Assembly: GCF_018326005.1 (NCBI RefSeq)
Contig: NZ_AP021903.1
Location: forward strand, 2,296,001-2,360,000
From: Pseudomonas sp. Seg1
Lineage (GTDB): Bacteria > Pseudomonadota > Gammaproteobacteria > Pseudomonadales > Pseudomonadaceae
Direction: 5' to 3'
DNA: 64,000 nt
Positions 31,194-61,803 of this stretch are shown one piece after another; the first letter of the stretch is position 1; each line of letters opens with the position of its first letter. Both the position numbers and the translations under genes were made by a program. The notes beneath the pieces are model-generated. The model was given only the letters and a program-made list of their open reading frames with translations, searched no databases and was not told the origin of the DNA.

Positions 31194-31194
31194 T
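31149..31194 (+). repeat. attL: 46-bp direct repeat at the left end of the genomic island
   Basis: This 46-bp stretch, from the anticodon loop of tRNA-Pro to one base past CCA, recurs exactly at 61726-61771. It marks the left junction of an island of about 30.6 kb. Confidence 0.93.
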
Positions 31195-40914: not shown

Positions 40915-41046
40915 CCCGCATGTCAGCGAGGGCGACCATCACGCCTTGATATGACACACGCATCCTGAATCTGTCAGGCTTGGGCGTGGCATTGTGCTAT
41001 GATTTGCCACGTTTTGCAGCCATTTTCATTTGAAGTAAGGATACAT

Positions 41047-41607: not shown

Positions 41608-41643
41608 CAGTATAAACGGTCGTTGATTACTCAAAAAAATAGG

Positions 41644-41680
41644 CCCCAACTGCGATGTCTCAGCAGGTTGGGGTTTAGCG
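41644..41680 (+). terminator. Terminator-like hairpin after the 41047 gene
   Basis: CCCCAACTGC pairs with GCAGGTTGGGG (one bulged base), followed by TTTAG; A-rich sequence precedes the stem. The gap to 41898 holds nothing else that I can support. Confidence 0.5.
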
Positions 41681-41898
41681 CTTAAATATATTCGAGCAAA
41701 AAATCGCATCCAAAAAAGTGAGTTGCTACTCTAAAATGGCTGAAGAGAGGGCGAGGCCGCCGAACTATTCCCGACAGTCAGAATCATGAAAATTATTGAC
41801 CATGATCCCTCCCTTCATACTTGTGTTATAAATATACATTTCAATAAATACAATTTACTCAGCAAACTGCCCGCTGGTCAGCTTCAGCGAAGCTGGTA

Positions 41899-42726: not shown

Positions 42727-42796
42727 AAAGTGGTAAGAGTTGGCGATAAGTATTTCGCTAAAACGAGCTCATAATTCTTCCTTAAAGGCTAGGCGC

Positions 42797-43249: not shown

Positions 43250-43321
43250 CTCGGAGGCAAAGTCTCCCAGCGCCCTGTCAATTCGTTGCCAATACCCTTT
43301 ATCGATTCCTGGTTCACCTAG

Positions 43322-43717
43322 TCATGACGCGATCAATTCCCGCAGACCCAGGCAGAACCCATGAATGTTGTCATCAGTGATGAAGTCACGAAGCAGCTTA
43401 GAATCTCGCTCAACGATGAACGAAACGCTGAAAGCTCCCGGGCAGTTGAGGTAGGAGATCAGGCCTTCTGACGCCTGCCGTGTCTTCTTCAGATCCTTCG
43501 GAGCCACGTTCGCGATATACTCTGAAAAATTCTTGTCAGTGTCATGCTTGAGCGTGATGACGAAGGAAAAGCTGTCGTTCGCTTTCTCTGTGTTGCCAAC
43601 GCAGTAGTCTGAGTAGATGTTCCAGGCTGCGTCTGGCCGATACTGCTTAATCCATTCCTGCATATCGCGGGTGAGCGACGGGCTGTTATCAGTGAGCAGC
43701 TTGAGTAGATCGAACAT
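43322..43717 (-). CDS. Hypothetical protein (131 aa), first of the AT-rich cassette
   Basis: The family is not recognised. The 131-aa soluble protein begins MFDLLKLLTDNSPSLTRDMQ and ends GFCLGLRELIAS. It starts at ATG 43717 with AGGGAAG upstream. The stop TGA is in frame with the downstream membrane-protein frame. The N-terminal cytosolic domain and the following membrane domain would together make about 305 aa if joined. Confidence 0.55.
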   Translation of the reverse strand: MFDLLKLLTDNSPSLTRDMQEWIKQYRPDAAWNIYSDYCVGNTEKANDSFSFVITLKHDTDKNFSEYIANVAPKDLKKTRQASEGLISYLNCPGAFSVSFIVERDSKLLRDFITDDNIHGFCLGLRELIAS

Positions 43718-43778
43718 GCGCTTCCCTGCCAGCGATGTGAAAGTGCCATCCTACCAGCGGCAGCAGGGAAACGCTTCG

Positions 43779-44040
43779 TCAGCAAAGCTCCAAGTGGACA
43801 AGATCAAGGAATCGCTCATCTTTCGATTTGGCGTCCCAGTCGCCATCCCACCGGAGTGGTATGCCCTTCGCGTTCGCTACTGCTTGTACGTAACCAGCGA
43901 GACGAGCAAATGCCAGCGAATCGCTCCAGTCGAGTGGGTGTGGTGCGATGTGTAGGGTGTTGTGTTTGCTGTGCGGCCATTCCTGCTTCGACTTACCCTC
44001 CCTGAGCGCCTTATTTTGAGCCTCTTTGTCGCGATACCAC
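43779..44040 (-). pseudogene. Remnant of phage-type M15 (L-Ala-D-Glu) peptidase
   Basis: The minus strand reads YRDKEAQNKALREGKSKQEW, PHSKHNTLHIAPHPLDWSDS, then AGYVQAVANAKGIPLRWDGD and DLVHLEL before the stop. This is the zinc-peptidase pattern S-x-H ... D ... H of phage endolysins. The aspartate expected after the first histidine is replaced (HIAP in place of DIAP) and there is no start codon. It is therefore probably inactive. Confidence 0.7.
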
Positions 44041-44044
44041 CTCG

Positions 44045-44497
44045 ATGTTAGCCAGGGCGGTTGAATTTTGGCGAGCGCGCGGGATGTATCGGGTGACACA
44101 CCAGGACAGGTACTGCTTAAGCAACCGCAGGTACCGGTCACGGGTACGCGGATCGATCTTCGGAGAAGGTGCAATTTCAGCTTTGCCGATTCTGGCGACC
44201 AGCTTGTCGGTTTGACGGCTGCTTTGGAGCCAGATGGCGTAACCGTCCAATAAAGCCAGAATCGGCTCGAAGTGGCAGGCCAAGATGGCGTCATCAATAT
44301 TGAGGCCACAGCTTTTGGCATAGATATAAAGCCTGGATCGCACTCAGATGTGCCGCAGCAGTGTTGTAAACGCGGTACCTTAGCTTGAGTTGAACGTAGA
44401 TGAACGGGACAAGCATGGGCAACGGCGCCGCGTTACCTGCTTGAACGACCAACGGCACACGCTGACCTGAAGAGAAACGGCATTGAATCAGCTTCAT
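44045..44497 (-). pseudogene. Truncated, frameshifted tyrosine recombinase (N-terminal part)
   Basis: From ATG 44497 the minus strand reads MKLIQCRFSSGQRVPLVVQA, then PLPMLVPFIYVQLKLRYRVY and AIQALYL. A one-base shift near 44330 continues it as IYAKSCGLNIDDAILACHFE, with RDRYLRLLKQYLSWCVTRYI later. This looks like the N-terminal arm- and core-binding region of a large site-specific integrase. The catalytic domain is missing and the sequence runs into the M15 peptidase remnant. Confidence 0.6.
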
Positions 44498-44650: not shown

Positions 44651-45562
44651 TCAACTCGCTCCAACTTTATCGCTCCCGCCCAAGTCTCCATTTGGGCTTC
44701 TGTATCCCGGCGCGAACATTGAGCTTTCTACCCCATAGAGAGCCAAGGGATCACTGAGCCATAGGCGGTATGCATTGTCTTCAATGCTGTGGTCAGGTGA
44801 GCAGTCCACGTGGTATTGCTGCAGGACGTACCCAGCCATCGCTGCGCGCACTCGCAGCCTAAGCACGCCGCCAGGCATTTCGTAGTCGAGCATCACAATC
44901 TGCGCATAATTCTTATTAGGGTGCGGCACGAGGGGGAGATCCAGCATTCGATTCCACTGATCATCGTGCTTTTGGTTTTCGTCGTTCTTGGGTTTAGCCC
45001 CCCACTGAGTCTGAGCCGTACCGATTCGAGCCAAAACGAAGTCCACAAATTTCTGGCGTTTCCGATCGTACGCTCGGACATGCCAGCGCAAGCCATCGCA
45101 ACTGACCGCGAACGGCACGATTTCCCGCTCAGACTCGCCCGACCCCGAGGTATAGCTGATTTTTACCACCTGGTTGAGGCTGATCGCGCGCGAGATCGGC
45201 GCCAAAACCTCTACCTTTGGCTTGCTGAGCAGCGAAATGGATTCGTTCAGGATGAGCGGCTTCTCTCCATCTAGACCGTATCCGTACCCTTGGGAAAGCG
45301 CCGTGAGCACGCGCTCAGGCGAGTGCACGATTAGAGGCGAGAACGTCTCGCGTATCGCATAATGCTTGGTCACAGTGTCCAGCTCAGTGTTCTCAGGAGC
45401 AATCTCCCGATACTGCGCGAAGTCGCGGGTGGCAGCTGCCGCGCCCACCCCGAAACGATCCATGAGATCAGTTCGTGAAACGGCCCCCGTGAAGTACAGG
45501 CGAAAATCTATGTACACCAGGCGCTCCCGTTGCGCTTGGCTGTATTCGCTCAAATCAATCAT
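44651..45562 (-). CDS. WYL-domain transcriptional regulator, BrxR/CapW type
   Basis: This 303-aa protein has three parts. An N-terminal winged helix begins QRERLVYIDFRLYFTGAVSR and continues DLMDRFGVGAAAATRDFAQY. A WYL domain (about residues 125-200) has IVPFAVSCDGLRWHVRAYDR and FVDFVLARIG. A C-terminal WCX-like region follows. This architecture defines the BrxR/CapW repressors that control BREX, CBASS and other defence loci, probably by sensing nucleic acid ligands. It is divergent from the 45744-46871 genes. An inverted repeat sits inside the promoter that would drive those genes. Confidence 0.85.
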   Translation of the reverse strand: MIDLSEYSQAQRERLVYIDFRLYFTGAVSRTDLMDRFGVGAAAATRDFAQYREIAPENTELDTVTKHYAIRETFSPLIVHSPERVLTALSQGYGYGLDGEKPLILNESISLLSKPKVEVLAPISRAISLNQVVKISYTSGSGESEREIVPFAVSCDGLRWHVRAYDRKRQKFVDFVLARIGTAQTQWGAKPKNDENQKHDDQWNRMLDLPLVPHPNKNYAQIVMLDYEMPGGVLRLRVRAAMAGYVLQQYHVDCSPDHSIEDNAYRLWLSDPLALYGVESSMFAPGYRSPNGDLGGSDKVGAS

Positions 45563-46157: not shown

Positions 46158-46871
46158 ATGTCTAGATGTACAGCACCAGTACGTGGACATAACTCAGCTG
46201 CCGCTGCCGCTGCCTGTCCTGCATGCCGCTATCGCACCAGTTCCCGCAGTAGCTCTCGCTATGACGGTTATGGCTCGTCCTACTCCCCCTCGGTCGGCAA
46301 TGGAGGTAGCCATGCTAACAGTAGCGGTGGTGGTGGCGGGTCCAGCAGCAGTTCAAAGCCGCGCTGGTCGAGAGCAGGTTCATCCGTATCGTACTCACCG
46401 GCCCAGGTGCAGTCCCTCACTCCAATTCGCGAAACCGTTGAGACGCGAGCAGCGGAGCAACCTGACCTTCGTGACGTCTTCCTGTGCCACGCATGGGACG
46501 ATCGGCACGGACCTGCCAAAGAGCTGCACGAGTTGCTCGTGGCGGCTGGTGTCAAAGTTTGGTTTAGCGAGAGGGACCTAGGTCTCGGTGTTCCAATGAT
46601 GCGCACAATCGACAAGGGCCTAGCGAATTCGCGAATCGGGCTTGTGCTGGTCACTCCCGCGTTGCTGACGCGCCTTCCCAAAGAGAGTGTTGCTGACAAA
46701 GAGCTTTCGGCACTCCTGGCGGGTAACCAGCTCGTTCCCATTGTGCACAACACGACGTATGAAGCTCTCCGCAATGTAAGTCCCTTGCTCGCCTCCCGAA
46801 GCGGCTTGGACACTGCAGAAGATTCAATGGCGGTGGTTGCGGCAAAAATCGCCGAGCTGGTAGCGCTCTAG
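46158..46871 (+). CDS. TIR-domain protein with N-terminal Cys/His motif
   Basis: This 237-aa protein has three parts. Residues 4-23 hold CTAPVRGH...CPAC, four possible zinc ligands (C4, H11, C20, C23). Residues 27-85 are a Ser/Gly-rich flexible linker. Residues 105-225 form a TIR domain: DVFLCHAWDDRHGPAKELHE, VKVWFSERDLGLG, IGLVLVTPALL and DKELSALL, where E182 sits at the position of the catalytic glutamate of NAD-hydrolysing TIRs. Bacterial TIR proteins often deplete NAD or make signalling nucleotides on phage infection. An AAAGGA ribosome site precedes it. It lies between the WYL regulator and the SMC operon. Confidence 0.82.
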   Translation: MSRCTAPVRGHNSAAAAAACPACRYRTSSRSSSRYDGYGSSYSPSVGNGGSHANSSGGGGGSSSSSKPRWSRAGSSVSYSPAQVQSLTPIRETVETRAAEQPDLRDVFLCHAWDDRHGPAKELHELLVAAGVKVWFSERDLGLGVPMMRTIDKGLANSRIGLVLVTPALLTRLPKESVADKELSALLAGNQLVPIVHNTTYEALRNVSPLLASRSGLDTAEDSMAVVAAKIAELVAL

Positions 46872-47348: not shown

Positions 47349-47474
47349 CTGGCGCATCATGTATGCGGCAGCTCAATCGGGTGGGCCGTTTAGCTCGGTA
47401 GCCGCGACGAGCGGTATATGCTTCAGCCAAGAAACCTTATGGTTTCACTTGTTTCGCAGAGCGCAAGGGATGCA

Positions 47475-48290
47475 ATGTCGAGGATCTACACCTATCTGAA
47501 CTCAATCAGCTCTGGTCAGCCGATCAACTTTGAGGCTTTTGCTAAGGAGTTGAAGAAGCATGGCAAGGGTGCTGGCTATCTGTTCGATACGTTTTCAACG
47601 TCGAAAATTGGAAAGAGCAGCTATCAGGTGGCTGTCTTGCGTGAGGATCGCTTTGCGGAGCTGATTCGTGAACACGCTCCATCAGAAGTTACGGGTCGTA
47701 TTGGTGCTGCTTTCGACGGAAGTAGCCACGCAGCAGCAGTAAGCGGCTCGCTTTTGATAACACGAAGCATGGTCCATCCTCATCCAAGCGTAGTTCTTCT
47801 GAGCAAGCATGGATGGGAAGCACCTAACACTCTCCGGCCAGCGGCGTTGCTGGTGGAAAATCTCGAGAATTTCCTAGCTCTCAAACAGACCGTCGACATC
47901 CTGGCCGACTGTGGCGTAGCTGAGCAAAGTGAAAGTTTCGATGTCATTTTCAGCGCCGGTAATCAGATCACCAACAGACTGAATATGCCATTTCTCAGCC
48001 AATACCAGAGGCTGTACTGCCTTTTTGATGTCGACTTAGGTGGGCTGACAATGTATCGAACCCTTCTCAAAGGGCTGCCAGACGGGCACCGGGTCGTGTT
48101 TGTGTACCCTGATGATATCGCCCACCGGTTAAGCGCTTCCAAATACTCACTAAATCAGCAAACGAGACAAGATCTCCTTGAGTTCGTTGGTCTATCCAAG
48201 GAAACCAATGAGCTGATCGGACTTATGCGAGACAGCCATAGAGCGCTAGAGCAAGAAACCTATTTGATGTTGGCAACGACAAGGGACTGA
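47475..48290 (+). CDS. TOPRIM nuclease subunit of an SMC system (MksG/JetD-like, compact)
   Basis: This 271-aa protein is related to the Wadjet nuclease JetD. The TOPRIM signatures are LLVENLENFLAL (E128) and LYCLFDVDLGGLTMY (D185, D187), which in JetD bind metal and cut DNA stalled in the SMC loop. The C-terminus (LGLSKE-like FVGLSKETNELIGLM, ALEQETYLM) also fits. At 271 aa it is much shorter than the usual 380-400 aa, lacking most of the N-terminal arm. ATG 47475 has AAGGG upstream; the frame is open from 47418. It overlaps the ATPase gene (TGATG). Confidence 0.75.
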   Translation: MSRIYTYLNSISSGQPINFEAFAKELKKHGKGAGYLFDTFSTSKIGKSSYQVAVLREDRFAELIREHAPSEVTGRIGAAFDGSSHAAAVSGSLLITRSMVHPHPSVVLLSKHGWEAPNTLRPAALLVENLENFLALKQTVDILADCGVAEQSESFDVIFSAGNQITNRLNMPFLSQYQRLYCLFDVDLGGLTMYRTLLKGLPDGHRVVFVYPDDIAHRLSASKYSLNQQTRQDLLEFVGLSKETNELIGLMRDSHRALEQETYLMLATTRD

Positions 48291-51241
48291 TGATGTTGAG
48301 CGACTCCTACGCGTTTCAGGACGTATACAAATTCCACAGACTGATTTTTGTTAACAGTGCTGCCTATGCCTACACCGTAATCCGCGTGGACAAGCACACC
48401 GCTTTGTGTGGCCAGAACAACCTCGGAAAGACCTCGATGCTGAATGCATTGAAGCTTTTTTTGCTGCCACACGAGAACTTCAAGAGCTGCAATAAGAAAT
48501 TCGCCTTCAAGGGGCCGGCCGGGACGTACTACTCGACTGATGCTAGCTACAGCTACTACTTCCCGGAAAACCACTCCTTCATCATCCTCGAAGCGGAGAA
48601 CATGCACGGCCCGTTCTGCCTGGTCCTGCACCGCGGGAATCGACCATTCTCATACGGCCGTATGGCAGTACCTTGCATGTATGCCGATATCCAGCACATG
48701 TTTTGGGACCTTGAGTCGCCCATCAATGGAGGCATGGGGGCTCCGATAGAAGGCATCTCACTTTCTGGTGTGCTTTCGGATCTCCGAGCTCGGGGCGGGG
48801 AGGCAATGAACGACGGTGCTGTCATTCGCCAGCGGCTCTTCGGTCAACAGGCTCTTAATCGTGAGGAGGGCCGATTCTGCTTGCTGCCTCTTAGGAATGG
48901 CGGTACCGCACGCGAGATCGACGCGTGGAAGATGCTAATCCACCTGGCCTTCGACATTGGGGCGAAGGACAACCGCACTCTGCCGGATACTATCGCCACG
49001 ATCATCGAAGGGGATAAGGACCGGAAGAATGCAGAGCTGAGTGTCAGCCTGAGCGAGATCCTCGATGACTATGAGAACCTGAAAAAAGAAGGCGATCGCC
49101 TGGCGGACATAGAAAGCGCGCGGAGGTCTTGGGAGGGCTTTGATAGCCAGTTCCAACTGTTTGAGACGAAATCCGAACTGATCGTTCAGAGTATCGTCGA
49201 TGTTGAGCATGCCTTGGCTGAAAGGCAGTCCAGCATTCTTGATGATGTTAAGGCAGCATCCGAGAGATATCAGGCTCTTGATGTGGCTCACTCAGCTAAG
49301 AGACAGCACCACGGTCTGGTCAAGGCTGAGTATCTGAAGCTGGCTGGAGCACTGAGTCTCCGGCATAAGGATTTGGACGGTGTCCAAAAGCAGCTATTCA
49401 AGGTCAGCGAGATTCTTCGGCGTTACCCTGGCACAACAGAGCATGAGGTCCGCGAGCTCTTATCCGATCTCTCCGCAGAGTTGACCGCAGACATCGAGAC
49501 CCTGACAAACAAGGTTCAGAGCGCTGAGCAACTAGCCCAGGCGATCAGGAATAAGAACAGTCTTTCCCATCAGCGCGACCAACTCCGAAAAATTCTTGAT
49601 GAACATGTGGAAACTGTTCTCGAGCAGGTCGATCGTCACAGTGCGTCGGTGCTGAGTAGCTTGAACTCGACGCTGTTCACCAAGCTGACTCCTCGACTCA
49701 ACTCTGACCAGAAGCAAGCCATCAAAGAGTTTGGCTGCCTATTCCAGGAGCGAGGTTCTTTCATCAGCTTCCTGAGCCAGGAGACCTCATTTGGTTTCAT
49801 GTCTTTCGACCCGACCAGAGCAAGGAAGCAGCACGAGCAAGACCTGATCAAACTGGATGACGATATCAAGGACTGTGATGACCTCATTCAGCGTCTAAAC
49901 GATGACAGCAAGTTGACTGCTGAGCAGGCCAAGGATAAAGCCAAGAAGCTGACCCGCGAGCGGATTGAAACTGATGAAGAGGTTCAACTACTCAGTCGGC
50001 ATGGCTACATGCGCGAGCAGCAGAAAGCATTGGAACTTGAGGTGGGGGAACAGACGGTAGAGTTGGCCAAGCTACATGAGAGTGTGGCGGATGCCGCCGG
50101 CGAGCTGGAGGACCTAGCGGTACAGGTTGAGCACGCAAAAGAAGTGCTCGGCAGGGTCAGGAAGGAAAACGAAGATCTGCGCAATTACCTTGAGCAGATC
50201 CGGAACGTAGCTGAGATCACTTTAGGATTCCTTTCGATCCGCGAAATGAAGCTGAAAGCTCGCGATACTTTCTTTCACCCTAGCCAGATCAAGGAGATTT
50301 CCCAGTTCGCTTCTGAGGTAGCCAAGAGCAGAGAAGCTCTGCAAGTGGCCTTGGATGAACTGCTGAAACGTAACTTGCTGGGCGAAGAGGGCAGAGACTT
50401 TGGCTACCATGCTTTCCATGACTTGAGTCGGATGCGTAGCTGTCGGAGAGCTTTCGCGGCGATGTTTGGCACCTTGGAAGGCGAGCAGCAGACCTACCAG
50501 GCCAAGGTCACCGCACATAACTCGAATACCTCTATTCAAATCGACGAAATCAAACACGCCAGAAGGATGATCAAGGAGTTCGAGAAAGAGGTAGATGACC
50601 AGCTCTCGGAGTTCAGTGTGTCTGACCTCGAGGCGATCGAGATTTACTGCGTATTGAATCCCCATTTCGAAGAGCTGTTGGTCGATATTGATTCCATAAA
50701 CCTCATGACAACCGGGCTCCACGAGAAGCGCTTGTATGAACGGTTACGAGCTTTCTGTACCGAGTTCTTTGTTCACGGTGGCCGTCGGGGGACCACCCTG
50801 GATATGAGCCTACTGATTGATCGGGTTGGATATCGGTACCGCAAGCGTGGGCATGACAAGTACACCGAAGAGGATCAATCCAACGGTACTACGGCAATGA
50901 TTAACTGCCGCCTGCTATCGATTCTTCTGCGTAGGCTGCTGGTTGCGAATACACAGATCTGTTTGCCATTGGTAATGGATGAGCTGTCGAATCTGAGCCA
51001 CTTGAATCTGAAGGCTGCGCGTGGCATCGCTGAGTCAGAAGGGTTCGTGCTGTTCGGGGCAACGCCGGAGCCGACGTCTACTATCGCGAAAGTAATCGAA
51101 AACTACATCGACCTTTCGCATTTTCTCGCCACCGACAGGGCATACAGCCACTTACGTCGAGTGATCTACACAGGTGAAAGCGAGTCGCTGAGAACAAAGA
51201 AAGATCCCGCCGATGCTGTTGCGGAGATCACTGCCGGATGA
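48290..51241 (+). CDS. SMC-like ATPase (MksB/JetC type)
   Basis: This 983-aa MukB/MksB-family ATPase has Walker A GQNNLGKTSM at residues 41-50. A long coiled coil with a central hinge spans roughly 230-800. A signature-like SNGTTAMINCRLLSILLRR and Walker B LPLVMDELSNL (D897, E898) complete a split ATPase head. In Wadjet/MksBEFG complexes it extrudes DNA loops and, with the TOPRIM subunit, cleaves small circular plasmids. It is the second of four overlapping genes. The length is close to pseudomonad MksB. Confidence 0.83.
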   Translation: MMLSDSYAFQDVYKFHRLIFVNSAAYAYTVIRVDKHTALCGQNNLGKTSMLNALKLFLLPHENFKSCNKKFAFKGPAGTYYSTDASYSYYFPENHSFIILEAENMHGPFCLVLHRGNRPFSYGRMAVPCMYADIQHMFWDLESPINGGMGAPIEGISLSGVLSDLRARGGEAMNDGAVIRQRLFGQQALNREEGRFCLLPLRNGGTAREIDAWKMLIHLAFDIGAKDNRTLPDTIATIIEGDKDRKNAELSVSLSEILDDYENLKKEGDRLADIESARRSWEGFDSQFQLFETKSELIVQSIVDVEHALAERQSSILDDVKAASERYQALDVAHSAKRQHHGLVKAEYLKLAGALSLRHKDLDGVQKQLFKVSEILRRYPGTTEHEVRELLSDLSAELTADIETLTNKVQSAEQLAQAIRNKNSLSHQRDQLRKILDEHVETVLEQVDRHSASVLSSLNSTLFTKLTPRLNSDQKQAIKEFGCLFQERGSFISFLSQETSFGFMSFDPTRARKQHEQDLIKLDDDIKDCDDLIQRLNDDSKLTAEQAKDKAKKLTRERIETDEEVQLLSRHGYMREQQKALELEVGEQTVELAKLHESVADAAGELEDLAVQVEHAKEVLGRVRKENEDLRNYLEQIRNVAEITLGFLSIREMKLKARDTFFHPSQIKEISQFASEVAKSREALQVALDELLKRNLLGEEGRDFGYHAFHDLSRMRSCRRAFAAMFGTLEGEQQTYQAKVTAHNSNTSIQIDEIKHARRMIKEFEKEVDDQLSEFSVSDLEAIEIYCVLNPHFEELLVDIDSINLMTTGLHEKRLYERLRAFCTEFFVHGGRRGTTLDMSLLIDRVGYRYRKRGHDKYTEEDQSNGTTAMINCRLLSILLRRLLVANTQICLPLVMDELSNLSHLNLKAARGIAESEGFVLFGATPEPTSTIAKVIENYIDLSHFLATDRAYSHLRRVIYTGESESLRTKKDPADAVAEITAG

Positions 51242-52644
51242 TCGTTGCAGCAGACAAAACGGTCATGCTCATGATCGAGCATAAGCACATTTTTCTTGAT
51301 CTTATCGACATCATGGATGAAGGCTCGGCTGGCGAAGAAGTGTCAACTCGCCTGTACGAGTCCAAAGTGATGAAGCTGCTTGATTCGCTGGGAGACAGTA
51401 AGTCCGATCGGCAAAAAATTGAAGCGGCCTTCGACGTGCGTAACCTCGTCCGAGCAAGCCTGATATTGCACCATGACACCAAGCGAGGAGTCATTGCCTT
51501 CGCCCCGTTTTTGATCGAGTTATTTCGCCACTTTGATAGATCGCGTCTTCGGCAGCTGAGTAGCGCCGATCTTGAGGCGCTGTGCGACAGCTTCAATGAT
51601 AGTCTTGAAAAGCTTCGCGATTTGACAGTGATTGAGCAGGGGAACGACACGTTCGAGGATGAGCTTAAGCTCCTCCGGGAACGCATCCGCTACGCTCAAG
51701 GGAAGATCAAGGAGAACGTGGACAGTCTTCAGGGGCAGACTCTTCGCCTGGCGGAGATCGTCGAAGTGATGAGCCTTGAGAACCTCGACGAGGTGAAGCA
51801 GGCTCGCGGTGCTTTGCAGGCGATCACCCGAATCTACGGTAGGCATGTTCTCCCCACATTGCAGTTCCTCAACGAGAGGGAACCTCTGAAGAAAGGCCTG
51901 CCGGCACTCACTGCCTTGCTGCGGATATCCGAGATGTTCCGCGATGCCAAGTTGCCAAAATTGGGTCAGCAGATTCTCTACGCAGTGGCATCCATTCGCT
52001 CCTATCGCTACGACGTGGAAGTCATCAGCAAGTCTCTGCAGCGCTACGTGCATCAGAATGAACGTCAGCGTCGTGAGTACGACCAGGTTGAGAGCGTTTT
52101 CAACGATCTACTAGTTGCCTGTCGGGAGCTCCATGACGGGAAACTAAGGGGCAACCTCATACCTAAAGATCATGAGGTACTGGAGCGTTTCTCTACCTTC
52201 AAAGGCATGAAGAGGCAGAGAGCCGATAGCAAGATTGAATGGCACAACGTAGATCATTGGCTTCACCTTCAGGAGCATCTGCGGAGTAGCCTGGATTCAC
52301 TCAAAAATACCCGAGTAACAACAACGTCTGTTGAGCCGGTTGGAGAGGACGTGCTCAAAGCCAGGCGTGCTTCAGACGTGCGCCGAAAACTAATTGGAAG
52401 GCTGATAGATGAGTGGCCTGTTCAGGTCGGGCCTGACGCCCATGCGTCGCTTCACGCACATCTGGCCCAGCAGATCAGCGACTACGAAATTGCTGACCTA
52501 GTGGAAGGCGTGTCTTGGCTAAAGCACCGAGAGGACATTGTGCTAACTCCTCGATTCCAGTTAGGGGTGATTGAGGACGACAGGCAGAAGTTGACCTATT
52601 ACAAATTGAGGATCGAGGAGCAGGGCAGTGAGACAACAGCTTAG
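51238..52644 (+). CDS. Kleisin-like subunit (MksF/JetA type)
   Basis: This 468-aa protein is mostly helical, with acidic linkers and coiled-coil segments. It fits the MukF/MksF kleisin that bridges the ATPase heads. It begins MIVAADKTVMLMIEHKHIFL and has LRERIRYAQGKIKENVDSLQ in the middle helical bundle and a winged-helix-like C-terminus (EDIVLTPRFQLGVIEDDRQK). The start overlaps the ATPase stop (ATGA) and the end overlaps the next gene by 17 nt. The assignment leans on size, position and fold pattern more than on sharp motifs. Confidence 0.72.
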   Translation: MIVAADKTVMLMIEHKHIFLDLIDIMDEGSAGEEVSTRLYESKVMKLLDSLGDSKSDRQKIEAAFDVRNLVRASLILHHDTKRGVIAFAPFLIELFRHFDRSRLRQLSSADLEALCDSFNDSLEKLRDLTVIEQGNDTFEDELKLLRERIRYAQGKIKENVDSLQGQTLRLAEIVEVMSLENLDEVKQARGALQAITRIYGRHVLPTLQFLNEREPLKKGLPALTALLRISEMFRDAKLPKLGQQILYAVASIRSYRYDVEVISKSLQRYVHQNERQRREYDQVESVFNDLLVACRELHDGKLRGNLIPKDHEVLERFSTFKGMKRQRADSKIEWHNVDHWLHLQEHLRSSLDSLKNTRVTTTSVEPVGEDVLKARRASDVRRKLIGRLIDEWPVQVGPDAHASLHAHLAQQISDYEIADLVEGVSWLKHREDIVLTPRFQLGVIEDDRQKLTYYKLRIEEQGSETTA

Positions 52645-53191
52645 CCAAGCCATCTACAAAGAGTTGATGTCGGGGAAGGTGATCAACAAAGACACCTACG
52701 AGAATGGTGAAATAAAACCCAACCCGCTCTTCGAAGAGATGCTCAATAACTACGATCAGAGCTACAAGCCCTTGTACTTGAACATCGGGTTTGAGTTGGT
52801 GATGCGGAATGGCTTTATCTACATCCGTTCAGTCGAGCGCGATGAGGAGTACAGCGAGGTGGTCAGGAAAATACAGGTTCTACTGCTGATCCTTGCTCGC
52901 GGACTGCATGAACAGGGGTACCAGCTTGATATTCTGCGCGACGGGGAAGCTGGTGTGTCTGATGGGATCATGGAGGAGATCGGGAAGGGAGAAGACAAAC
53001 AAGATGTCATGTCTGCCAGCAACATGAAAGGGGAGGCTCTTGCATCTGCAGTTAGGAAAAATCTCGAGCAGCGTGGGATCGCCTACAGGAATGCAAAAGG
53101 CAATCTGGTACTGACTCATGCTGGATTAGCGTTCTTTGACGACGTATTTAAGTACAGTAATGCTGAACCAGGTGCAGTTATGGTGGCTTGA
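52628..53191 (+). CDS. MksE/JetB-like subunit
   Basis: This 187-aa protein starts at GTG 52628 inside the kleisin gene. It has two winged-helix-like halves: LSQAIYKELMSGKVINKDTY leads to RVERDEEY-like SVERDEEYSEVVRKIQVLLL, and ALASAVRKNLEQRGIAYRNA precedes GNLVLTHAGLAFFDDVF. This is the MukE/MksE pattern. These proteins bind the kleisin as dimers and regulate the SMC heads. It ends the four-gene operon. The gene order G-B-F-E (D-C-A-B in Jet terms) differs from the A-B-C-D order usual for type I Wadjet. Confidence 0.75.
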   Translation: MRQQLSQAIYKELMSGKVINKDTYENGEIKPNPLFEEMLNNYDQSYKPLYLNIGFELVMRNGFIYIRSVERDEEYSEVVRKIQVLLLILARGLHEQGYQLDILRDGEAGVSDGIMEEIGKGEDKQDVMSASNMKGEALASAVRKNLEQRGIAYRNAKGNLVLTHAGLAFFDDVFKYSNAEPGAVMVA

Positions 53192-53680
53192 GTTTCCGGC
53201 TTTATCAATTGGTAGATGGTTTCTTTACCCTCCATCACATCCTCGACATAGATTGTTGGCGCCTACGCCGAATTGCCCCAGTTGCTGAGATTTCACTGAC
53301 CCAGTCTGACTCCTCGCGAATCCTTGTCTGTGCTGGATTTTTGAAGGTTTGGAGATGGGGCAGTCTTGCCTCGGCACGTGGGTCAATTCAGCGTCGGCGT
53401 GAACAATCAGAGCGTGAATCCAGCCGCTTGATCGTACGTAAATGCCGGATGTAGCTGACAAGGACAGTTCGCGCGTCCGTCTGCCGGTTTCGCAGGTAAC
53501 GCCCGTAACTTTCAGTTTTCGACGTATTGAGCGCGTTTCACACAGCCTGGACTCATTGCGGAGGTTATGAGTTCCAAGCTCATCTGCGCATCGATGGCAA
53601 TTGGCCCTATCATGCATTCATTGCGTGACTGCCCGATTGAATGTGGCTAAGTGGTTTGGATAGGACAAGGAGAGCGGAAG
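53192..53680 (+). other. Gap between the SMC operon and the DUF6361 operon
   Basis: About 490 bp with no coding frame that I can support on either strand and no strong terminator. It presumably holds the promoter of the next operon. The separation suggests that the two defence-type operons are transcribed independently. Confidence 0.45.
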
Positions 53681-54889
53681 GTGTCAGGCAAGAGTCAATT
53701 GGGATGGGTGGACTTTTCGAGCGAAGACCGGGACCGCGTCAAACACGCTCTCAAGCAGCTGTCGGAGCCGGGGACGCTGGATGAGCTGGGCATAGGAGGG
53801 TTGCGCGATGGGTTTGCGGATCTGATGTTTCCAGGTTTTTCCACGCTGCAGACTCGAGCCAAGTATTTCGTCACTGTGCCGCGGATCATCCGCGATTATC
53901 TGCACTTGAGCCCGTCGCAGCAGCGTAAGCAGCCGGCTGCGGATTACTTGGAGGAACAGGAAGCACGGTTGTCAGAGGTGCTCAGAGAAAAGCATCAGGA
54001 CGGAACCCAGACCGGCATTTCTGGATCTTCTTTGAGCAAAGGTGAGCGTGTCACTCGACAGCCTTCGTCGATCTATTGGGTAGGCCTGAGGACCTGGAAG
54101 CTTGTCGATACTGGGGGCTCGCTCCGGCAATTTCTGCAGGCAATCGGATCGTCAGAAGCGTTTCATGGAAGCATCTATGGCGATGAAGGGGACGACAGTG
54201 ATGCACACAACGTTGTCCGCAGTGTGTACCTAGATCGCTTTGTGCCTGATTGGCTGGACAAGGTCAAAATCACGCTGACGGCTTCCGAGGCACGTTTTTT
54301 AAGTGAAAAGTTCAAAGCCGGCCCCGAACTGAGCCTGCCTTGCCTACTGGAAATACAGGGGCTGCGCGAGCAGGCCCTCACCAAGACTGAGTTCCCAGCG
54401 CTGGCGGCTTGGGCCGCCGATCAGCCGTCGCTGCCTGGCCGGACCCGCGAATACGTGGCGATGGCGCAAGCGTTCAGTGAGCTGATCTACGGTGCTCACT
54501 TGCGATTCAACATAATCCTTGTCCGTAACGACTATCGCGAACATGACGCTCTGCTGGAGGACTTTGCCGAGCTTTGGGATGCATGGCGCACGCAGACTCA
54601 CGCGACGCCCGCCGACATCTTCCGCTGGCTTGAACAGACTCAAGTTACGCTGGCCAGTCACACGACTCTGTTTCTAACCCGATGGGCTGAAGGTTTAATC
54701 CAGGGGGCATCGGATGTCGAACTGGATAAGCTGGTGGAACATCAGGCGCGGGCAAACAAGAAGGAGCGGAGTGTGCTGAATAAACAGCTGCCCGAAGGGT
54801 TCGCTTGGCTAGGGATGGCGCGGCTGGATTATCGCTGGAGGCAGGTTCGAACCGTGCTGAAAGATATTCAGGAGGGCGTGGCATGCTGA
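53681..54889 (+). CDS. DUF6361-family protein
   Basis: This 402-aa protein begins VSGKSQLGWVDFSSEDRDRV and continues GTLDELGIGGLRDGFADLMF and LQTRAKYFVTVPRIIRDYL. I recognise this as the conserved N-terminal block of DUF6361, a family without known function. GTG 53681 is chosen for AAGGAGAG eight bases upstream. There is no membrane segment. It is the first of three tightly coupled genes: its stop overlaps the start of the PLD-like gene by 7 nt. Constant coupling with a PLD-like protein and a helicase suggests a substrate-recognition role, which is inference. Confidence 0.75.
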   Translation: MSGKSQLGWVDFSSEDRDRVKHALKQLSEPGTLDELGIGGLRDGFADLMFPGFSTLQTRAKYFVTVPRIIRDYLHLSPSQQRKQPAADYLEEQEARLSEVLREKHQDGTQTGISGSSLSKGERVTRQPSSIYWVGLRTWKLVDTGGSLRQFLQAIGSSEAFHGSIYGDEGDDSDAHNVVRSVYLDRFVPDWLDKVKITLTASEARFLSEKFKAGPELSLPCLLEIQGLREQALTKTEFPALAAWAADQPSLPGRTREYVAMAQAFSELIYGAHLRFNIILVRNDYREHDALLEDFAELWDAWRTQTHATPADIFRWLEQTQVTLASHTTLFLTRWAEGLIQGASDVELDKLVEHQARANKKERSVLNKQLPEGFAWLGMARLDYRWRQVRTVLKDIQEGVAC

Positions 54890-56661
54890 ATCCGCACGCT
54901 GATCGCCTGGACTATGGCGACAAACTCAAAGCCCCGGAAGGGTTCACGTTAAGCCATGCCATCGCGACGACCTACACCCTAGATCTTGAGACGCTCTTGT
55001 GTCTGCCGTTGGCGCTGTCGTTCAACTGCCCGCCGGAGGGCGATTTACAGACCGATAAGCTGGCGCTGCTGGAAGCGATCAGCCAGTTGAAGGGCAAGGT
55101 GAAGGTTTTCTTTCAGCAGGGCTGCATCAAACTTCCGCGCCACTTCAACCTGCTGTTTTCGTTGCTCGAACCGTTATTGGCGCCCCAGGTTCCCGGCGAT
55201 GCGTTCAGCTCGTTCCACCCCAAGTTCTGGCTGTTGCGATTCACCAGTCCGACGAAGGTGGTGCGGTACCGGTTGTTGGTGCTGTCGCGGAATCTGACGT
55301 TCGACCGCAGTTGGGACCTTGCAGTCGCTCTGGAAGGGGAACCCACGAGCGCACGCAGTGAAGACAACGATGGACTTGTGGCACTGCTGAAGGCGCTGGC
55401 CGCCGGTGCGGAGGACCTGCGTGCCGGACTGGAGCTTTTTGTCAAGGAGCTGCCTCGGGTGGCCTGGGACAAGCCTGCCGGATTCAACGCGCTGAAGACA
55501 TTGCCTGAAAAGCCAGGGAAGTTGCCGCTGTCATTGGGTACCGCTGCCAGCACGGTAATGGTGATGTCACCGTTTCTCCATCACGAAGCGCTCGACCTGG
55601 TCAAGCAGGCTGGTGCGCGGCACTGGCTGTTCAGCCGCGCAGAAGAGCTCGACCGTATGGGTGAATGCCAGCTGCAGGATTGGGAGTGCTTCGCGCTCAA
55701 TCCTTGCCTGATCGAGGGCGAGGATGAGCTCACCGCAGCCCGTCCCCAGAATCTGCATGCCAAGCTGGTGCTGCTGCAGGAGGGCGCCGTCAGTCATTGG
55801 CATATCGGTTCGGCGAATGTCACCAAGGCAGCCCTTGGCGCTTTGGGAGCGGCGCCGCGCAATACCGAGTTCATGCTGCGACTGTCGAGCAAAAGTGGCC
55901 AGCAGTCCGTCGACCAGCTCCGCGCAGAACTGGTAGGACGTGAGCAAGAGCCGACAGGTATTTTCATCCCTCATCGTTTCAGCCCAGCGTCGATCACGGA
56001 TGATCATCAGACGGAAGCGTGGATGCGCAGACTCCAGCACAACCTGATCCAGGCAGACTGGTGTCTGCAGGCCCGTGCCGAGGCCAACGGGACTTACACC
56101 TGTGTCATTGAATGCCCGCCGCCACTCCTGGAGCAACATGGCGATTGGGTGATCGAGGTGCAGCCGCTGGTCAGAGGCAAGCCGCTGAGTCTGGCTTCTC
56201 GTATGGTTTGGGAAGACCTGAATCTGACCCAGGTCAGTGCATTCGTTATTCTCAGAGTGATACCGGTGTCATCACCTCCCGTCGAACTGATGATCAAGGT
56301 CCGTCTTGAAATCGATGGTGGCGATACGCGAGAGCAGAAAATCACGACGACGCTGATTGATAGCCCGCACAAGCTGCTGGCTTATATTCAGATGCTGTTG
56401 CATCCAGGCCACGCGTATACGGCGGATACCGGCATGACGAGGGAGGGCGGTCCCGGGGCGGACGCTGATACCGACTTCAGCCAGATGTTCGGCGGGCCGC
56501 TGCACGAGGCTCTCTTGCGTTGTGCTGCCCGACAGCCTGAAAAGCTGCAGCGCATCGACGCCATTCTGGCCCGGCTCAGCGACACTGAACATCTGGTCCC
56601 TTCTGAGCTGTCTGTCTTATGGGCGCAGTACCAGCAGCTTGCATGGAAGAAGAAAGCATGA
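54883..56661 (+). CDS. Phospholipase D-like (HKD-type) protein
   Basis: This 592-aa protein has two half-sites of the PLD fold. The first is SFHPKFWLLRF (H112, K114) followed by LVLSRNLTFDRSWDLAV. The second is QNLHAKLVLLQ (H292, K294) followed by IGSANVTKAALGA. The two HxK motifs plus the S-x-N-x-T elements are those of PLD-superfamily nucleases rather than lipid enzymes; the third acidic residue of HKD is not evident. The C-terminal 200 residues are beta-rich and unassigned. An AGGAGGG ribosome site precedes ATG 54883, and the end overlaps the helicase start (ATGA). Confidence 0.8.
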   Translation: MLNPHADRLDYGDKLKAPEGFTLSHAIATTYTLDLETLLCLPLALSFNCPPEGDLQTDKLALLEAISQLKGKVKVFFQQGCIKLPRHFNLLFSLLEPLLAPQVPGDAFSSFHPKFWLLRFTSPTKVVRYRLLVLSRNLTFDRSWDLAVALEGEPTSARSEDNDGLVALLKALAAGAEDLRAGLELFVKELPRVAWDKPAGFNALKTLPEKPGKLPLSLGTAASTVMVMSPFLHHEALDLVKQAGARHWLFSRAEELDRMGECQLQDWECFALNPCLIEGEDELTAARPQNLHAKLVLLQEGAVSHWHIGSANVTKAALGALGAAPRNTEFMLRLSSKSGQQSVDQLRAELVGREQEPTGIFIPHRFSPASITDDHQTEAWMRRLQHNLIQADWCLQARAEANGTYTCVIECPPPLLEQHGDWVIEVQPLVRGKPLSLASRMVWEDLNLTQVSAFVILRVIPVSSPPVELMIKVRLEIDGGDTREQKITTTLIDSPHKLLAYIQMLLHPGHAYTADTGMTREGGPGADADTDFSQMFGGPLHEALLRCAARQPEKLQRIDAILARLSDTEHLVPSELSVLWAQYQQLAWKKKA

Positions 56662-59600
56662 CTCGATTTGTATCGGATCGCGACAACGTCGATCTAGCCC
56701 TGCAGATGACTTGGAGCAGGCTCAAGGATTTCCAGCGTGCGACAGTCGAGCGTATTGCCGAACAGTTCAAAGACCCGCAGCACAGCCGTCGGGTGCTGGT
56801 TGCCGACGAAGTCGGGTTAGGAAAGACCGTCGTAGCGAAAGGACTGATCGTGTCGATGCTGCGCGACTGGCATCGACGCGAACCGCTGCGTGTCACCTAT
56901 ATCTGTTCCAACTTGAGTCTGGCCGCTGAGAACCTGGCCAAGCTTGCCGTGTTTCCAGCAGGCAGCGGCTGGATTCGACAGCCGTCTTACGCACGCCTCG
57001 CACAAGTCGCGGTGTGCCAGCCCGAGCAGCACAGTGCATTGCTGGAAATTTGCACCCTGACGCCAGCCACATCGTTTTCGCTGACCCAGGGAACAGGAAA
57101 CCGGCAGGAGAGGGGCATCATCCTTGCGGCGTTGCTTCAGCACCCGCAGCTTCGAGGTTTTCGCCACAGTTTGACGGCGCTGTTCCAGGACCGAGTGCAA
57201 TGCGCTGACAGCTGGCAGGCGGAGCGGGATCAGATAGAACAGCAAGGACTGGTGAAGGAGATCGTTGCCAGCTTTCACGCAGCGATCACTTTCGTGTCGA
57301 ACGACGCGACGCCCTCATTGCTGGAACGACTGCGCAGCACTGCCTGTCTGCGTGCGGAACGTCACCGTGGCGTCAAACGCGAGCTGATGCGCGATTTGCG
57401 CGTGACGTTCGCCCGATGCTGCGCTACGCATCTCCGGGCGGATCTGTTCATTCTCGACGAGTTTCAGCGCTTCGAAAGCCTGCTCGATCTGCAGGAAAAC
57501 GAACAGTCCCTGATCGCGCGGGAGATATTCAGTCGCGAGCGCGAGAGCAATGTCTTGATGCTCTCGGCCACTCCGTTCAAAGCCATGAGCACCGTGGATG
57601 ACGATGAGAACGATGACGGCCATCTGGAGAAACTCAAGCAGATCCTCGCGTTTTTGAATCTGTCGCCACTCGATGCTTACGAACCTGCACGCAAGAAACT
57701 GCAGGCTGCGCTGCTGTGTCTGCGACGCGACTGCATCGATGGCGAAGCGCTGGACGATGCGCCTCGCCGAGAAGTGGAGCGATTGCTTCGCCCACTGATT
57801 TGCCGCACGGAGCGAAGCCAGATCGCTCGGGATGTGGACAGCCTGGTCGACGGGATACCCCCGCAAGACTTGCCACAATTGCGCACCGATGATATCCGCA
57901 CTTATATCGAGCTGGACCGGCTGGCGCTCGTTCTGGAAGCTGACAGCTCACTGCGCGTCTCCAGTCAGATCATGAGTTTTTTCAAGTCGGCAGCCTGGCC
58001 GCTGTCGTTCAGTACCGGTTACAAAGTGCAAGAAGTGCTGCAACGCCGCTTCGAGCGATCTCCGGCGCTGTTCAAGCAGTTGACCGCCAACAAAAACCTC
58101 TGGTTATCGCGCGAGCGGATCCGCAAGTTCACGCTGGATGTCGCCCGCGAGGCACCCAATCCGCAGGTTCGCTGGTTAGCCAGTCACTTGTTTGGAGACG
58201 GGCGTAAAGCCGGTCCGGAAATGCTGCTTTGGCTACCGCCTAGTTGGCCGCACTATAGACTCAGAGGCTTTTTTGCCGGTCACGAGCAACTCAGCAAGAC
58301 GTTACTGTTTTCCTCCTGGACGATGGTGCCGAGGATGGTGGGCGGGCTGATGAGCTACGAGGCGGAACGGCGAGTCCAGCAGCATCTCACGGACAAATCG
58401 GAGTACTTCAACAAGCGCCGTGCCGGTGTCAGCGAAGACGACCAGAACCGTCATCTGCAACAACGTCGCGCGGTGATCAAACTCGACAGCGGGGACGTTG
58501 CCAACTGGTCGCTGATTTATCCTGCCCGCTGCCTGACTGACATTCCGATAGCGCGTACTTCAGTCCCACTGGAGAGCCGCCTTGACGAACTCATCCGGCA
58601 CTTCACAAGGAGTCTAGCGTCATTGCGCGTCCGCAATCAGGGCGCTCAGAACAGCCACTACTGGTATCTGTTTGCCCCGATGCTGCTGGATCAGGCGCAC
58701 GAGGGATGGACCGCCACATGGTTCGAAGCCATGTCGGACGTCGGCAATCTCTCCGACGGAGCGCGGTTGCGCGTTCGCGAAATATCCCGTCGTTTCAACC
58801 AACTGGATGAACTGGGCGCAATGCCTGAAGACCTTCCTCAGTACCTTGCCAGGCTGGCTTTGGGATCGCCGGCGGTGTGCGCCTACCGCGTGCTGCGGCA
58901 GCTGTATCCCGGTCCTTGCCTGATAGGAGCCGCCAGTCGGGTCGCTCTGGGATTTGTCAGTCTATTCAACAGCGTCACGGGCAGTGCGATCGCCCGGCGG
59001 CTCGACCCGCTGCATCCTTGGCGAGGCATCGTGAGGTACTGCGCCGATGGCGGCATTCAGGCGATGCTTGAGGAGTACTGTTACCTACTTGCACCCGACA
59101 AGTTGCTGGATGATGTGGTGACTACGCTCGAAAGCGTTCTTCGCACGACACCGTCGAATGTGAAAGTCTGGAAGGTTGACAGGGAAAAAGACGACACTCA
59201 CCTGAGATGTCATTATGCCGTGCAACTGGGCGCTCAGAAAACCACGGATGAAGCGGGCCAGACACGAATCATCAATATACGTGAAAGCTTCAATTCGCCG
59301 TTTCGGCCGTTCGTTCTCGCATCAACTTCCATTGGTCAGGAAGGCCTGGATTTTCATTGGTACTGCAGCGAAGTCGTGCATTGGAATTTGCCGAATAACC
59401 CGATAGATCTGGAACAGCGGGAAGGGCGGGTCAATCGCTACCAGTCGCTGGTGGTCCGGCGTCGCGTGGTGCAAGCGGTGGCGGAGTACGACAGCGCGCC
59501 CGAAAACTGGAAGGCGTTGTTTACATCTGTCGAAAGCCCCACCTGGGGAACTGATCTGGTGCCCTATTGGCATTATCCCGAAGGTGACGCGAAGATCCGC

Positions 59601-59825
59601 CGCTTGATTCCGAGACTTGCCTTCAGCGAAGAAGCACGCCGCTATCCGAACATGCAAAAAGTCCTATCGCTTTACCGTCTAGCATTCGGTCAACCAGGGC
59701 AAAGCGAGATGCTAGAGCACTTGAAGAACTTGAATCTGGATGACGAAGCGCTTGAGCACATAAAAAGTCAGTTGTTGATCCGGTTAGCGCCCGTTCTGTA
59801 CCGGAGGGAGCGGTCACGTACTTGA
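56658..59825 (+). CDS. SF2 (SNF2/DEAD-like) helicase of the DUF6361-PLD operon
   Basis: This 1055-aa ATPase has motif I VADEVGLGKTVVAKGLI (K56), motif II LFILDEFQRF (D267, E268) and motif III MLSATPFKAM (about residue 303). The C-terminal RecA lobe has ASTSIGQEGLDFHWYCSEVV and NNPIDLEQREGRVNRYQ (arginine finger region about 920). A large insert of about 350 residues lies between the lobes. It resembles helicases of DISARM and other restriction-like systems in domain style, but no DUF1998 or methyltransferase partner is present. It would translocate on DNA and hand it to the PLD-like partner. Confidence 0.83.
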   Translation: MTRFVSDRDNVDLALQMTWSRLKDFQRATVERIAEQFKDPQHSRRVLVADEVGLGKTVVAKGLIVSMLRDWHRREPLRVTYICSNLSLAAENLAKLAVFPAGSGWIRQPSYARLAQVAVCQPEQHSALLEICTLTPATSFSLTQGTGNRQERGIILAALLQHPQLRGFRHSLTALFQDRVQCADSWQAERDQIEQQGLVKEIVASFHAAITFVSNDATPSLLERLRSTACLRAERHRGVKRELMRDLRVTFARCCATHLRADLFILDEFQRFESLLDLQENEQSLIAREIFSRERESNVLMLSATPFKAMSTVDDDENDDGHLEKLKQILAFLNLSPLDAYEPARKKLQAALLCLRRDCIDGEALDDAPRREVERLLRPLICRTERSQIARDVDSLVDGIPPQDLPQLRTDDIRTYIELDRLALVLEADSSLRVSSQIMSFFKSAAWPLSFSTGYKVQEVLQRRFERSPALFKQLTANKNLWLSRERIRKFTLDVAREAPNPQVRWLASHLFGDGRKAGPEMLLWLPPSWPHYRLRGFFAGHEQLSKTLLFSSWTMVPRMVGGLMSYEAERRVQQHLTDKSEYFNKRRAGVSEDDQNRHLQQRRAVIKLDSGDVANWSLIYPARCLTDIPIARTSVPLESRLDELIRHFTRSLASLRVRNQGAQNSHYWYLFAPMLLDQAHEGWTATWFEAMSDVGNLSDGARLRVREISRRFNQLDELGAMPEDLPQYLARLALGSPAVCAYRVLRQLYPGPCLIGAASRVALGFVSLFNSVTGSAIARRLDPLHPWRGIVRYCADGGIQAMLEEYCYLLAPDKLLDDVVTTLESVLRTTPSNVKVWKVDREKDDTHLRCHYAVQLGAQKTTDEAGQTRIINIRESFNSPFRPFVLASTSIGQEGLDFHWYCSEVVHWNLPNNPIDLEQREGRVNRYQSLVVRRRVVQAVAEYDSAPENWKALFTSVESPTWGTDLVPYWHYPEGDAKIRRLIPRLAFSEEARRYPNMQKVLSLYRLAFGQPGQSEMLEHLKNLNLDDEALEHIKSQLLIRLAPVLYRRERSRT

Positions 59826-60109
59826 TGCCTGGGCTGTGGCAGGAGGGACTGGGCGTGCCGCGAAACACTGATACAAACACTAGTTCCCTGCGCAGAACAT
59901 CGACAAAAACAGCCCGACCGGAGGATTGTTGCTTCACGTAACGGCGGCGAAGTTCGCCGACCTTTTGGCGCTGTACCGGCTAGAGAATATTTTCGGTGGA
60001 GCCGGGCTGCCGATGGCACGCCCTACACTGGCACAGCGAGTTGGACAACGGTTCCACTTCTCACGGGGTCGTCAATCGCTGATGACGACTCAACACTAAA
60101 GACGCCAAC
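59826..60109. other. Convergent gap between the helicase and integrase genes
   Basis: No supported gene and no strong terminator stem with T run was seen. Short frames here do not resemble proteins. Confidence 0.4.
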
Positions 60110-61564
60110 TTAAGACGGCGGTAAATAACTATTCCCGGTATATGCAGAAAACGACAACATCGACTCGGTCGGTGTGTGCTCGTAGGTTGCGGACAAGACT
60201 TCACTGAGACGATCGCCCAACAGATTCCAGGCACGTTTCTTCTCTTCGGCATAGTCGTGATGCAGGTAGTGTCGTCTCACCCGCGAACCGGCCAGTACAT
60301 GGTTTTGGCAGCGGTCGATGACGTCCAGGCTGACCCCCAAGGCCTGCATCATGGTCGCGCCCGTGCGGCGCAGGTCATGCGGCGTCCAGTCGCCGTTTTG
60401 GCCGTCGGCCAGGACCAGGGTATCGTCGTGACGCCGTCGTGAGAGGGCCTTGCGGTTTTTGAACCGGGCCTGGCGATCGCCAACCTGTTTACTCGCCACC
60501 TTTACGTCTACATGCCCATCATCCTGCTTGTTCGGAAAGCACCACTGGGAGTCCCCCGTCAGGGTCTTGAGCTCCTGAAAGAAATGCAAGGCGAAGGGGG
60601 AGAGGAAGACATGGTGGTCCTGTTTCTTGCCCCGGGTGCCTTTGACGTTTTCACTGGGAAGGAACCAAGTTTGCCGGTCCAGATCGACATTTTTCCATTC
60701 GGCCTGCAGCAACTCGCCTATCCGACACAGGGTGCCCAGACTGATCCAGAGCGCGAGTTGGGTTTCCTTCTTTAACGGCCGTATGCCGTCGTATTTTTGC
60801 CCAGCGGGCAGGGCGTTGTAATCGGCCGTCATTTGCTGGAAGCAGTTGTGAAGTTCCAACAGCTCAGCCGGGGAAAGGATCCGGCTTCTTTCGGCCTCGT
60901 AGTCGGCAGGGATCAGCGGGGAGATGTCGACCAGCTCAGTCGGATCGCCCTCGATCAATAAGGCCCGCCAGGGCTGACGCTTTCTGGCCCAACTGAACAT
61001 CTGAGTGAGGTCGGCGAAGAAACTGATGGCTTGCCGGTGAGCGCCGCGGTTGATCACGGCCCGGATCAGCGCCCGAACATCGTGTTCGGAGACGCTGCTC
61101 ACCGCGGTCTTGCCGAGTGCCGGAAAAAGGTCCTTGTTAAAACGGCGCTGCAATTCAGCATTGCCATCTTTGCGCGCCACGCCATCCAACAGCCACGCCT
61201 TGGCCAGATCCTGGACGGTCAGCGTTTTCACCTTCGTCGTTTTTACTAGTTCAGCCTCTACGTTAGCAGCGGCGTATGCTTGTGCCTTAGCGGTTTTCTT
61301 TTGCTCGTTGGGATTGATCTGCTCATCAATGAGCGCGCGGGCCTGATTACGCGCCTTGCGGATGTCTGTCAGGGATTTGCGCGGCCAGGTTCCGCAGGCG
61401 TACTCTTTGTTCTGGTCGCCCCACCGATAACGATAGAAAAAGCTGACCGACACACCGTCCTTGCGGACTGAGATTCGACCGGCCAGATTGCCATCCTCCC
61501 GGAGGATTCGGCCGGCATCGTTGGGAGTCAGCGACTCGAGTTCTTTGATGGTGATTTTGGCCAT
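60110..61564 (-). CDS. Tyrosine integrase of the genomic island
   Basis: This 484-aa P4/CP4-57-type integrase starts at ATG 61564 (GGGGGAG upstream). An N-terminal DUF4102-like arm-binding domain (SVSFFYRYRWGDQNKEYACG) is followed by a core-binding domain (TVQDLAKAWLLDGVARKDGN). The catalytic domain has all expected residues: R in GTLCRIGELLQAEWKNVDL, H-x-x-R in WTPHDLRRTGATMMQALGV, H in CQNHVLAGSRV and Y in RRHYLHHDY. It sits about 160 bp inside attR and reads away from it. It is intact, so the island may still be excisable. Confidence 0.95.
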   Translation of the reverse strand: MAKITIKELESLTPNDAGRILREDGNLAGRISVRKDGVSVSFFYRYRWGDQNKEYACGTWPRKSLTDIRKARNQARALIDEQINPNEQKKTAKAQAYAAANVEAELVKTTKVKTLTVQDLAKAWLLDGVARKDGNAELQRRFNKDLFPALGKTAVSSVSEHDVRALIRAVINRGAHRQAISFFADLTQMFSWARKRQPWRALLIEGDPTELVDISPLIPADYEAERSRILSPAELLELHNCFQQMTADYNALPAGQKYDGIRPLKKETQLALWISLGTLCRIGELLQAEWKNVDLDRQTWFLPSENVKGTRGKKQDHHVFLSPFALHFFQELKTLTGDSQWCFPNKQDDGHVDVKVASKQVGDRQARFKNRKALSRRRHDDTLVLADGQNGDWTPHDLRRTGATMMQALGVSLDVIDRCQNHVLAGSRVRRHYLHHDYAEEKKRAWNLLGDRLSEVLSATYEHTPTESMLSFSAYTGNSYLPPS

Positions 61565-61582
61565 GAAACGGACTCCCCCTAC

Positions 61583-61598
61583 TTTTACCCCCACAAAA
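61583..61598 (+). repeat. 16-bp repeat upstream of the integrase, candidate arm site
   Basis: The same 16 bases as at 31250-31265, in direct orientation, lie 19 bp upstream of the integrase start. They could bind the integrase arm domain and also autoregulate its promoter. Confidence 0.55.
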
Positions 61599-61725
61599 AA
61601 CGTCGGCTCTTGATGGACGTTACTGGACTCTCGTAGAGCAGAACAACGCTGGAGCTCAAGTAAATACTAGCTTGGAAAAATCCAGAGCAAAATTTTGGAA
61701 GCTTTCAAGAAGTATGAAAAAGGAG

Positions 61726-61771
61726 ATGGGGTGCTAGGGGTCGAGTGTTCGAATCACTCCGTCCCGACCAT
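61726..61771 (+). repeat. attR: 46-bp direct repeat at the right end of the genomic island
   Basis: An exact copy of 31149-31194, the 3' part of tRNA-Pro including CCA, but without the 5' half of the tRNA. It marks the right junction. Confidence 0.93.
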
Positions 61772-61803
61772 TATTCCTGAATAAAATCAGACACTTGAGC
61801 CGA

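Follow-up and report, generated by a model that had tools for sequence, protein, structure and literature searches.

What kind of system is formed by three tightly coupled genes, encoding a DUF6361 protein, a phospholipase D (PLD)-like protein and a superfamily 2 (SF2) helicase, in Pseudomonas sp. Seg1? The genes lie in a window of 64,000 nucleotides (contig NZ_AP021903.1, positions 2,296,001 to 2,360,000, from a single-contig genome of 6.6 Mb), and an earlier note, made from the sequence alone, had proposed them as an undescribed DNA-targeting defence system. The proposal of novelty did not survive the comparison with defence profiles that the note itself had suggested: all three proteins matched, nearly end to end, the PADLOC models of ZacA, ZacB and ZacC, the components of the already named system Azaca, and a match to a named system was the outcome that the note had set against its own claim.

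Identity and conservation of the cassette

The three genes are arranged as follows.

53681-54889, + strand: zacA, DUF6361 gene, GTG start, 402 amino acids
54883-56661, + strand: zacB, PLD-superfamily gene of the HKN/Tdp1 type, ATG start, 592 amino acids
56658-59825, + strand: zacC, gene of an SF2, SNF2/RapA-like ATPase, 1055 amino acids from the ATG overlapping the zacB stop

The mechanically called open reading frame (ORF) of zacC starts at 56619, and its 1055 residues are counted from the ATG at 56658. The overlaps amount to 7 nucleotides between zacA and zacB and 4 nucleotides (ATGA) between zacB and zacC, confirming the coupling by overlapping stop and start codons described earlier. ZacA aligned with PDLC03828 at 322 bits (profile positions 2-394 of 396), ZacB with PDLC03829 at 500 bits (1-583 of 586) and ZacC with PDLC03830 at 921 bits (6-1017 of 1019). 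The assignment of the first gene to DUF6361 also held (Pfam PF19888, 92.8 bits, cut-off 25). Near full-length profile matches of this kind, together with the conserved synteny given below, rule out chance. Judged by its sequence, the three-gene cassette is a complete copy of Azaca (ZacABC), and an ordinary one, since all three proteins, their order and their motifs are those of Azaca and no difference was found. Azaca is named or counted in PMC10952713, PMC12278908, PMC12926258, PMC12629846 and PMC11680222, with no mention of its mechanism in the passages concerned; there, PMC10952713, citing Millman et al. 2022, describes it as carrying a PLD-like domain, and PMC12629846 reports it from an island hotspot in Pseudomonas.

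Relatives of ZacB were found at 257 places in a one-genome-per-species collection, and linkage was counted in the best 80 of these. A DUF6361 gene lies directly upstream of zacB in 80 of 80 (one copy, at L046, being cut by a contig end), and zacC lies directly downstream in 79, the exception being L044, where the 3.3-kb contig stops behind zacB. The reverse search, from DUF6361, covered 398 genomes of the phylum and 369 of the class and matched seven in each set, the Seg1 genome being counted both times. Full-length copies in nine other genomes had B and C adjacent in every case (9/9), the ZacC of G823 being split over two reading frames, and the partial matches in G378, in G321 and at a second place in G812 had no B or C alongside. 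The co-occurrence asked about in the earlier note is thus borne out, as is its description of a self-contained cassette of three genes. The hosts among the best 80 are spread over Pseudomonadota, Desulfocapsaceae, Campylobacteraceae, Bacteroidota, Verrucomicrobiota, Kiritimatiellota, Bacillota, Eremiobacterota and Methanobrevibacter, many of the places being metagenome bins, and the nearest named relatives are Pseudomonas. Thirty-eight plasmid records also match, and both plasmid copies examined preserve the A-B-C order. On the Haliscomenobacter hydrossis plasmid pHALHY01 (L138), Azaca has the M and S genes of a type I restriction system on one side and its R gene on the other, and ZacA-B-C is also present on MT835621 (L139), an unverified scaffold of human faecal origin labelled 'bacteriophage'.

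Two other systems pair a PLD protein with a helicase related to ZacC: DISARM includes the PLD protein DrmC, and Dpd includes DpdK. The C-terminal helicase lobe of ZacC matches DrmD (NCBIfam, 55.8 bits) but does not reach the cut-off of 610, and none of the three Zac proteins has a DUF1998 match in Pfam, so the earlier exclusion of DISARM stands by the models tested. ZacC likewise matches DpdE (NCBIfam, 59.5 bits) but falls short of the cut-off of 500, and the sole further Dpd match is a weak one to DpdJ (45.3 bits), by an unrelated helicase encoded at 32570-35962. The single-protein anti-phage PLD-helicase NF042964 was rejected as a candidate (33.1 bits against an NCBIfam cut-off of 1100; PADLOC PLD_Helicase, 19.2 bits).

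ZacB and its partners

The window ZacB possesses both HxK half-sites and both S/R-x-N elements, in agreement with what had been read from the sequence before. The two half-sites are H112/K114/N137 and H292/K294/N312, and their H, K and N residues are invariant in 81 of 81 sequences, whereas the Asp of the HKD motif is missing in 81/81 at one half-site and in 75/81 at the other. Fold comparison of the predicted ZacB structure returned Tdp1 (tyrosyl-DNA phosphodiesterase 1), which frees DNA of attached proteins and damaged ends, at ranks 1-23 and also other PLD enzymes; identity in the Tdp1 rows was 14-16%, and the Z margins of Tdp1 over phospholipase D and PLD3 were small. Sequence searches gave less: 36 ZacB sequences gave a list of 12 Pfam families (E up to 10), in which PLDc_2 is the only PLD family, seen in 10 of 36 members and weak in the window protein (E 0.056), and which includes no Tdp1 model; the PDB yielded no sequence match to ZacB at E up to 1. 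ZacB is accordingly predicted, from its modelled structure, to be a PLD-superfamily protein with a Tdp1-type HKN fold. It shares with Tdp1 (for which see the relevant parts of PMC5750209 and PMC10547559) the two H-x-K plus N half-sites lacking the Asp of HKD and, by prediction, the fold; it differs in an extra region (residues 377-592), in being encoded with a helicase and in lacking a Pfam or PDB sequence match to it. The term 'tyrosyl-DNA phosphodiesterase' was absent from the matches listed in the anti-phage and defense-island literature, and we make no claim of novelty for the likeness.

In ZacC, the motifs DEVGLGKT (K56), DEFQ (267-270), SATP (303-306), QEGLDFH and QREGRxNR are conserved in at least 95% of 72 sequences, eight of the 80 rows, short or split, having failed a filter on length and score; the large protein therefore has the intact SF2 motifs previously ascribed to it. 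It matches Helicase_C in Pfam, and its nearest PDB sequence, weakly and over short stretches, is RapA (20.9 bits). DNA translocation is the activity generally associated with the SNF2/RapA-like family, and by this analogy ZacC is likely a DNA translocase. ZacA is predicted to be an all-helical protein and is proposed to be a sensor or adaptor.

The tRNA-Pro island

The cassette belongs to an island whose boundaries, and the leader of zacA, are these.

31117-31193: tRNA-Pro (GGG), its 3' part copied in the attachment repeat
31149-31194, + strand: left attachment repeat, 46-bp perfect direct repeat, 3' part of tRNA-Pro (GGG)
53192-53680, + strand: intergenic leader upstream of zacA
60110-61594, - strand: tyrosine integrase of the island (Pfam Phage_integrase and Arm-DNA-bind_3)
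61726-61771, + strand: right attachment repeat, second copy of the 46-bp perfect repeat

Integration into a tRNA gene, as the earlier note had it, is thereby confirmed. The island in tRNA-Pro measures 30.6 kb, with the zac cassette at its right end and the integrase just inside the right repeat. Window positions 53250-61776, comprising Azaca, the integrase and the attachment repeat, are common to P. endophytica (L003) at 98.3%, where the integrase again adjoins Azaca, the condensin operon to the left of the Seg1 cassette is missing, and the compared flanks (3.3 kb left, 3 kb right) have no match to the window. Since the P. endophytica homology starts at 53250, the edge of the cassette falls within the leader, and the limits of the match indicate that Azaca, with about 430 nucleotides of leader, is also found without the condensin operon. 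A search of 53150-53750 showed neither a consensus sigma-70 promoter nor a terminator.

Further genes and regions of the island are the following.

32570-35962, + strand, near the left island end: 1130-amino-acid TM0106-type RecB-like nuclease fused to a superfamily 1 helicase (TIGR03491, 252.6 bits; AAA_12 and RNase_H_2; weak MkoA and DpdJ matches)
37875-39491: insertion sequence, a DUF772/DDE-type transposase gene between 21-bp perfect inverted repeats
40999-41607, and four - strand ORFs at 41899-44321: no family match in the libraries tried
41000-43000: low-GC region, GC 0.42-0.43
44651-45562, - strand: WYL-domain regulator
46158-46871, + strand: TIR protein, next to the condensin operon on its upstream side; matches ThsB1 over its whole length (PDLC00424, 415 bits)
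47418-53191, + strand: condensin operon, divergent Wadjet/Mks-like, left of Azaca; JetD-like protein of 290 amino acids, SMC-like protein of 983, a protein of 468 without family, and MksE of 187 (PF21980, E 7e-17)

The TIR protein and the condensin-like operon bear out the report of other defence-like genes on the same island. No ThsA match was found among the nearby proteins scanned, the rest of the genome not having been searched for it. None of the four condensin-operon proteins matches the PADLOC Jet models at E 0.01; the JetD-like protein has 39 relatives in the protein collection, and relatives of it match JetD models weakly, one of them above the Pfam cut-off. Genomes G564 and G504, which alone among the 198 other genomes of the genus have an SMC match of nearly full length, share the gene order of the condensin operon and have a related WYL regulator upstream, and the operon is possibly an uncatalogued Wadjet subtype. 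Three of the Azaca loci (L006, L009 and L022) contain WYL genes as well.

The neighbours of Azaca loci were surveyed by taking 132 ORFs (67 upstream, 65 downstream) and scanning 99 after 11 of more than 1200 amino acids and 22 short ones were dropped. These matched 193 PADLOC families at E 1e-15; among the matches listed (25 of the 193 families), models of the GajB-type UvrD helicase and RTasHel lead with four members each, followed by type I restriction, MkoA and PDC-S41 with three each. Pfam returned helicases and restriction genes from the same 99, and also ordinary genes. No enrichment in defence genes is claimed, because the ORFs were chosen by a mechanical rule, so that some may be non-genes, no control set was used and the total of matched proteins is not given.

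How Azaca may act

On balance we favour the reading of the locus as a complete ZacABC operon, a cassette lying at that end of the tRNA-Pro island where the integrase is, whose products would attack DNA jointly. The sequence itself shows which family the proteins belong to, that their motifs are intact, that the order of the genes is conserved and that the context is a mobile one; the ZacB fold enters as a prediction. ZacA, ZacB and ZacC would form one complex, in which ZacC, as an SNF2/RapA-like ATPase, would translocate on double-stranded DNA, ZacB, as a Tdp1-fold HKN phosphodiesterase, would attack DNA or DNA ends, and ZacA would recognise invading DNA or connect the parts. A covalent histidine intermediate is expected of enzymes of the ZacB family. 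The roles assigned in the earlier note, with the helicase loading, the PLD-like protein cutting and DUF6361 giving specificity, are plausible proposals. Neither the three Zac proteins nor the remaining island proteins that were scanned, a subset of the island ORFs, matched a methyltransferase, so that methylation would not be the mark of self, and discrimination would depend instead on the ends or the structure of the DNA or on a triggered activation; recognition by Azaca is probably a matter of DNA state.

A Hachiman-like action is possible, though doubtful. Hachiman, in the account given in parts of PMC12278908, also defends by a nuclease and an SF2 helicase, a two-part logic that Azaca may share, and a host-protecting modification gene was not matched here either. 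The same account, however, makes HamB Ski2-like, whereas the nearest PDB sequence to ZacC is RapA; Hachiman has two genes (HamA and HamB) against the three of Azaca, the PADLOC matches listed for the three Zac proteins include neither HamA nor HamB, and in particular HamB is absent from the 25 families listed out of the 26 that ZacC matches.

Alternatively, ZacB might not cut DNA internally but trim its ends, stripping off proteins or terminal nucleotides and so spoiling protein-capped invader DNA; its substrates would be terminal proteins or the phosphotyrosyl adducts that relaxases, topoisomerases or integrases form. HKN in place of HKD and the occupation of fold ranks 1-23 by Tdp1 speak for this, but a common fold does not determine the substrate, Tdp1 leads phospholipase D and PLD3 by small Z margins, and the 12 Pfam families listed contain PLDc_2 (10 of 36 sequences) as their only PLD family and no Tdp1 model; we regard it as unlikely. 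A longer shot still is that Azaca as a whole is a Tdp1-based defence, in which a helicase-driven HKN phosphodiesterase would resolve covalent protein-DNA intermediates or capped invader ends, recognising a relaxase, topoisomerase, integrase or terminal-protein adduct by its chemical state and not by sequence or a missing methyl mark. An undescribed system has virtually no chance given the near full-length ZacA, ZacB and ZacC matches, even though no paper mentioning DUF6361 was found in the literature searched.

With the locus read as a ZacABC operon that would attack DNA jointly, the point worth carrying forward is the Tdp1-type HKN site of ZacB, invariant in 81 sequences from Pseudomonas to Bacillota and Methanobrevibacter, which provides residues and substrates for probing the mechanism of Azaca. 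If ZacB does act on protein-DNA adducts or DNA ends, Azaca would follow a recognition principle unlike that of restriction.
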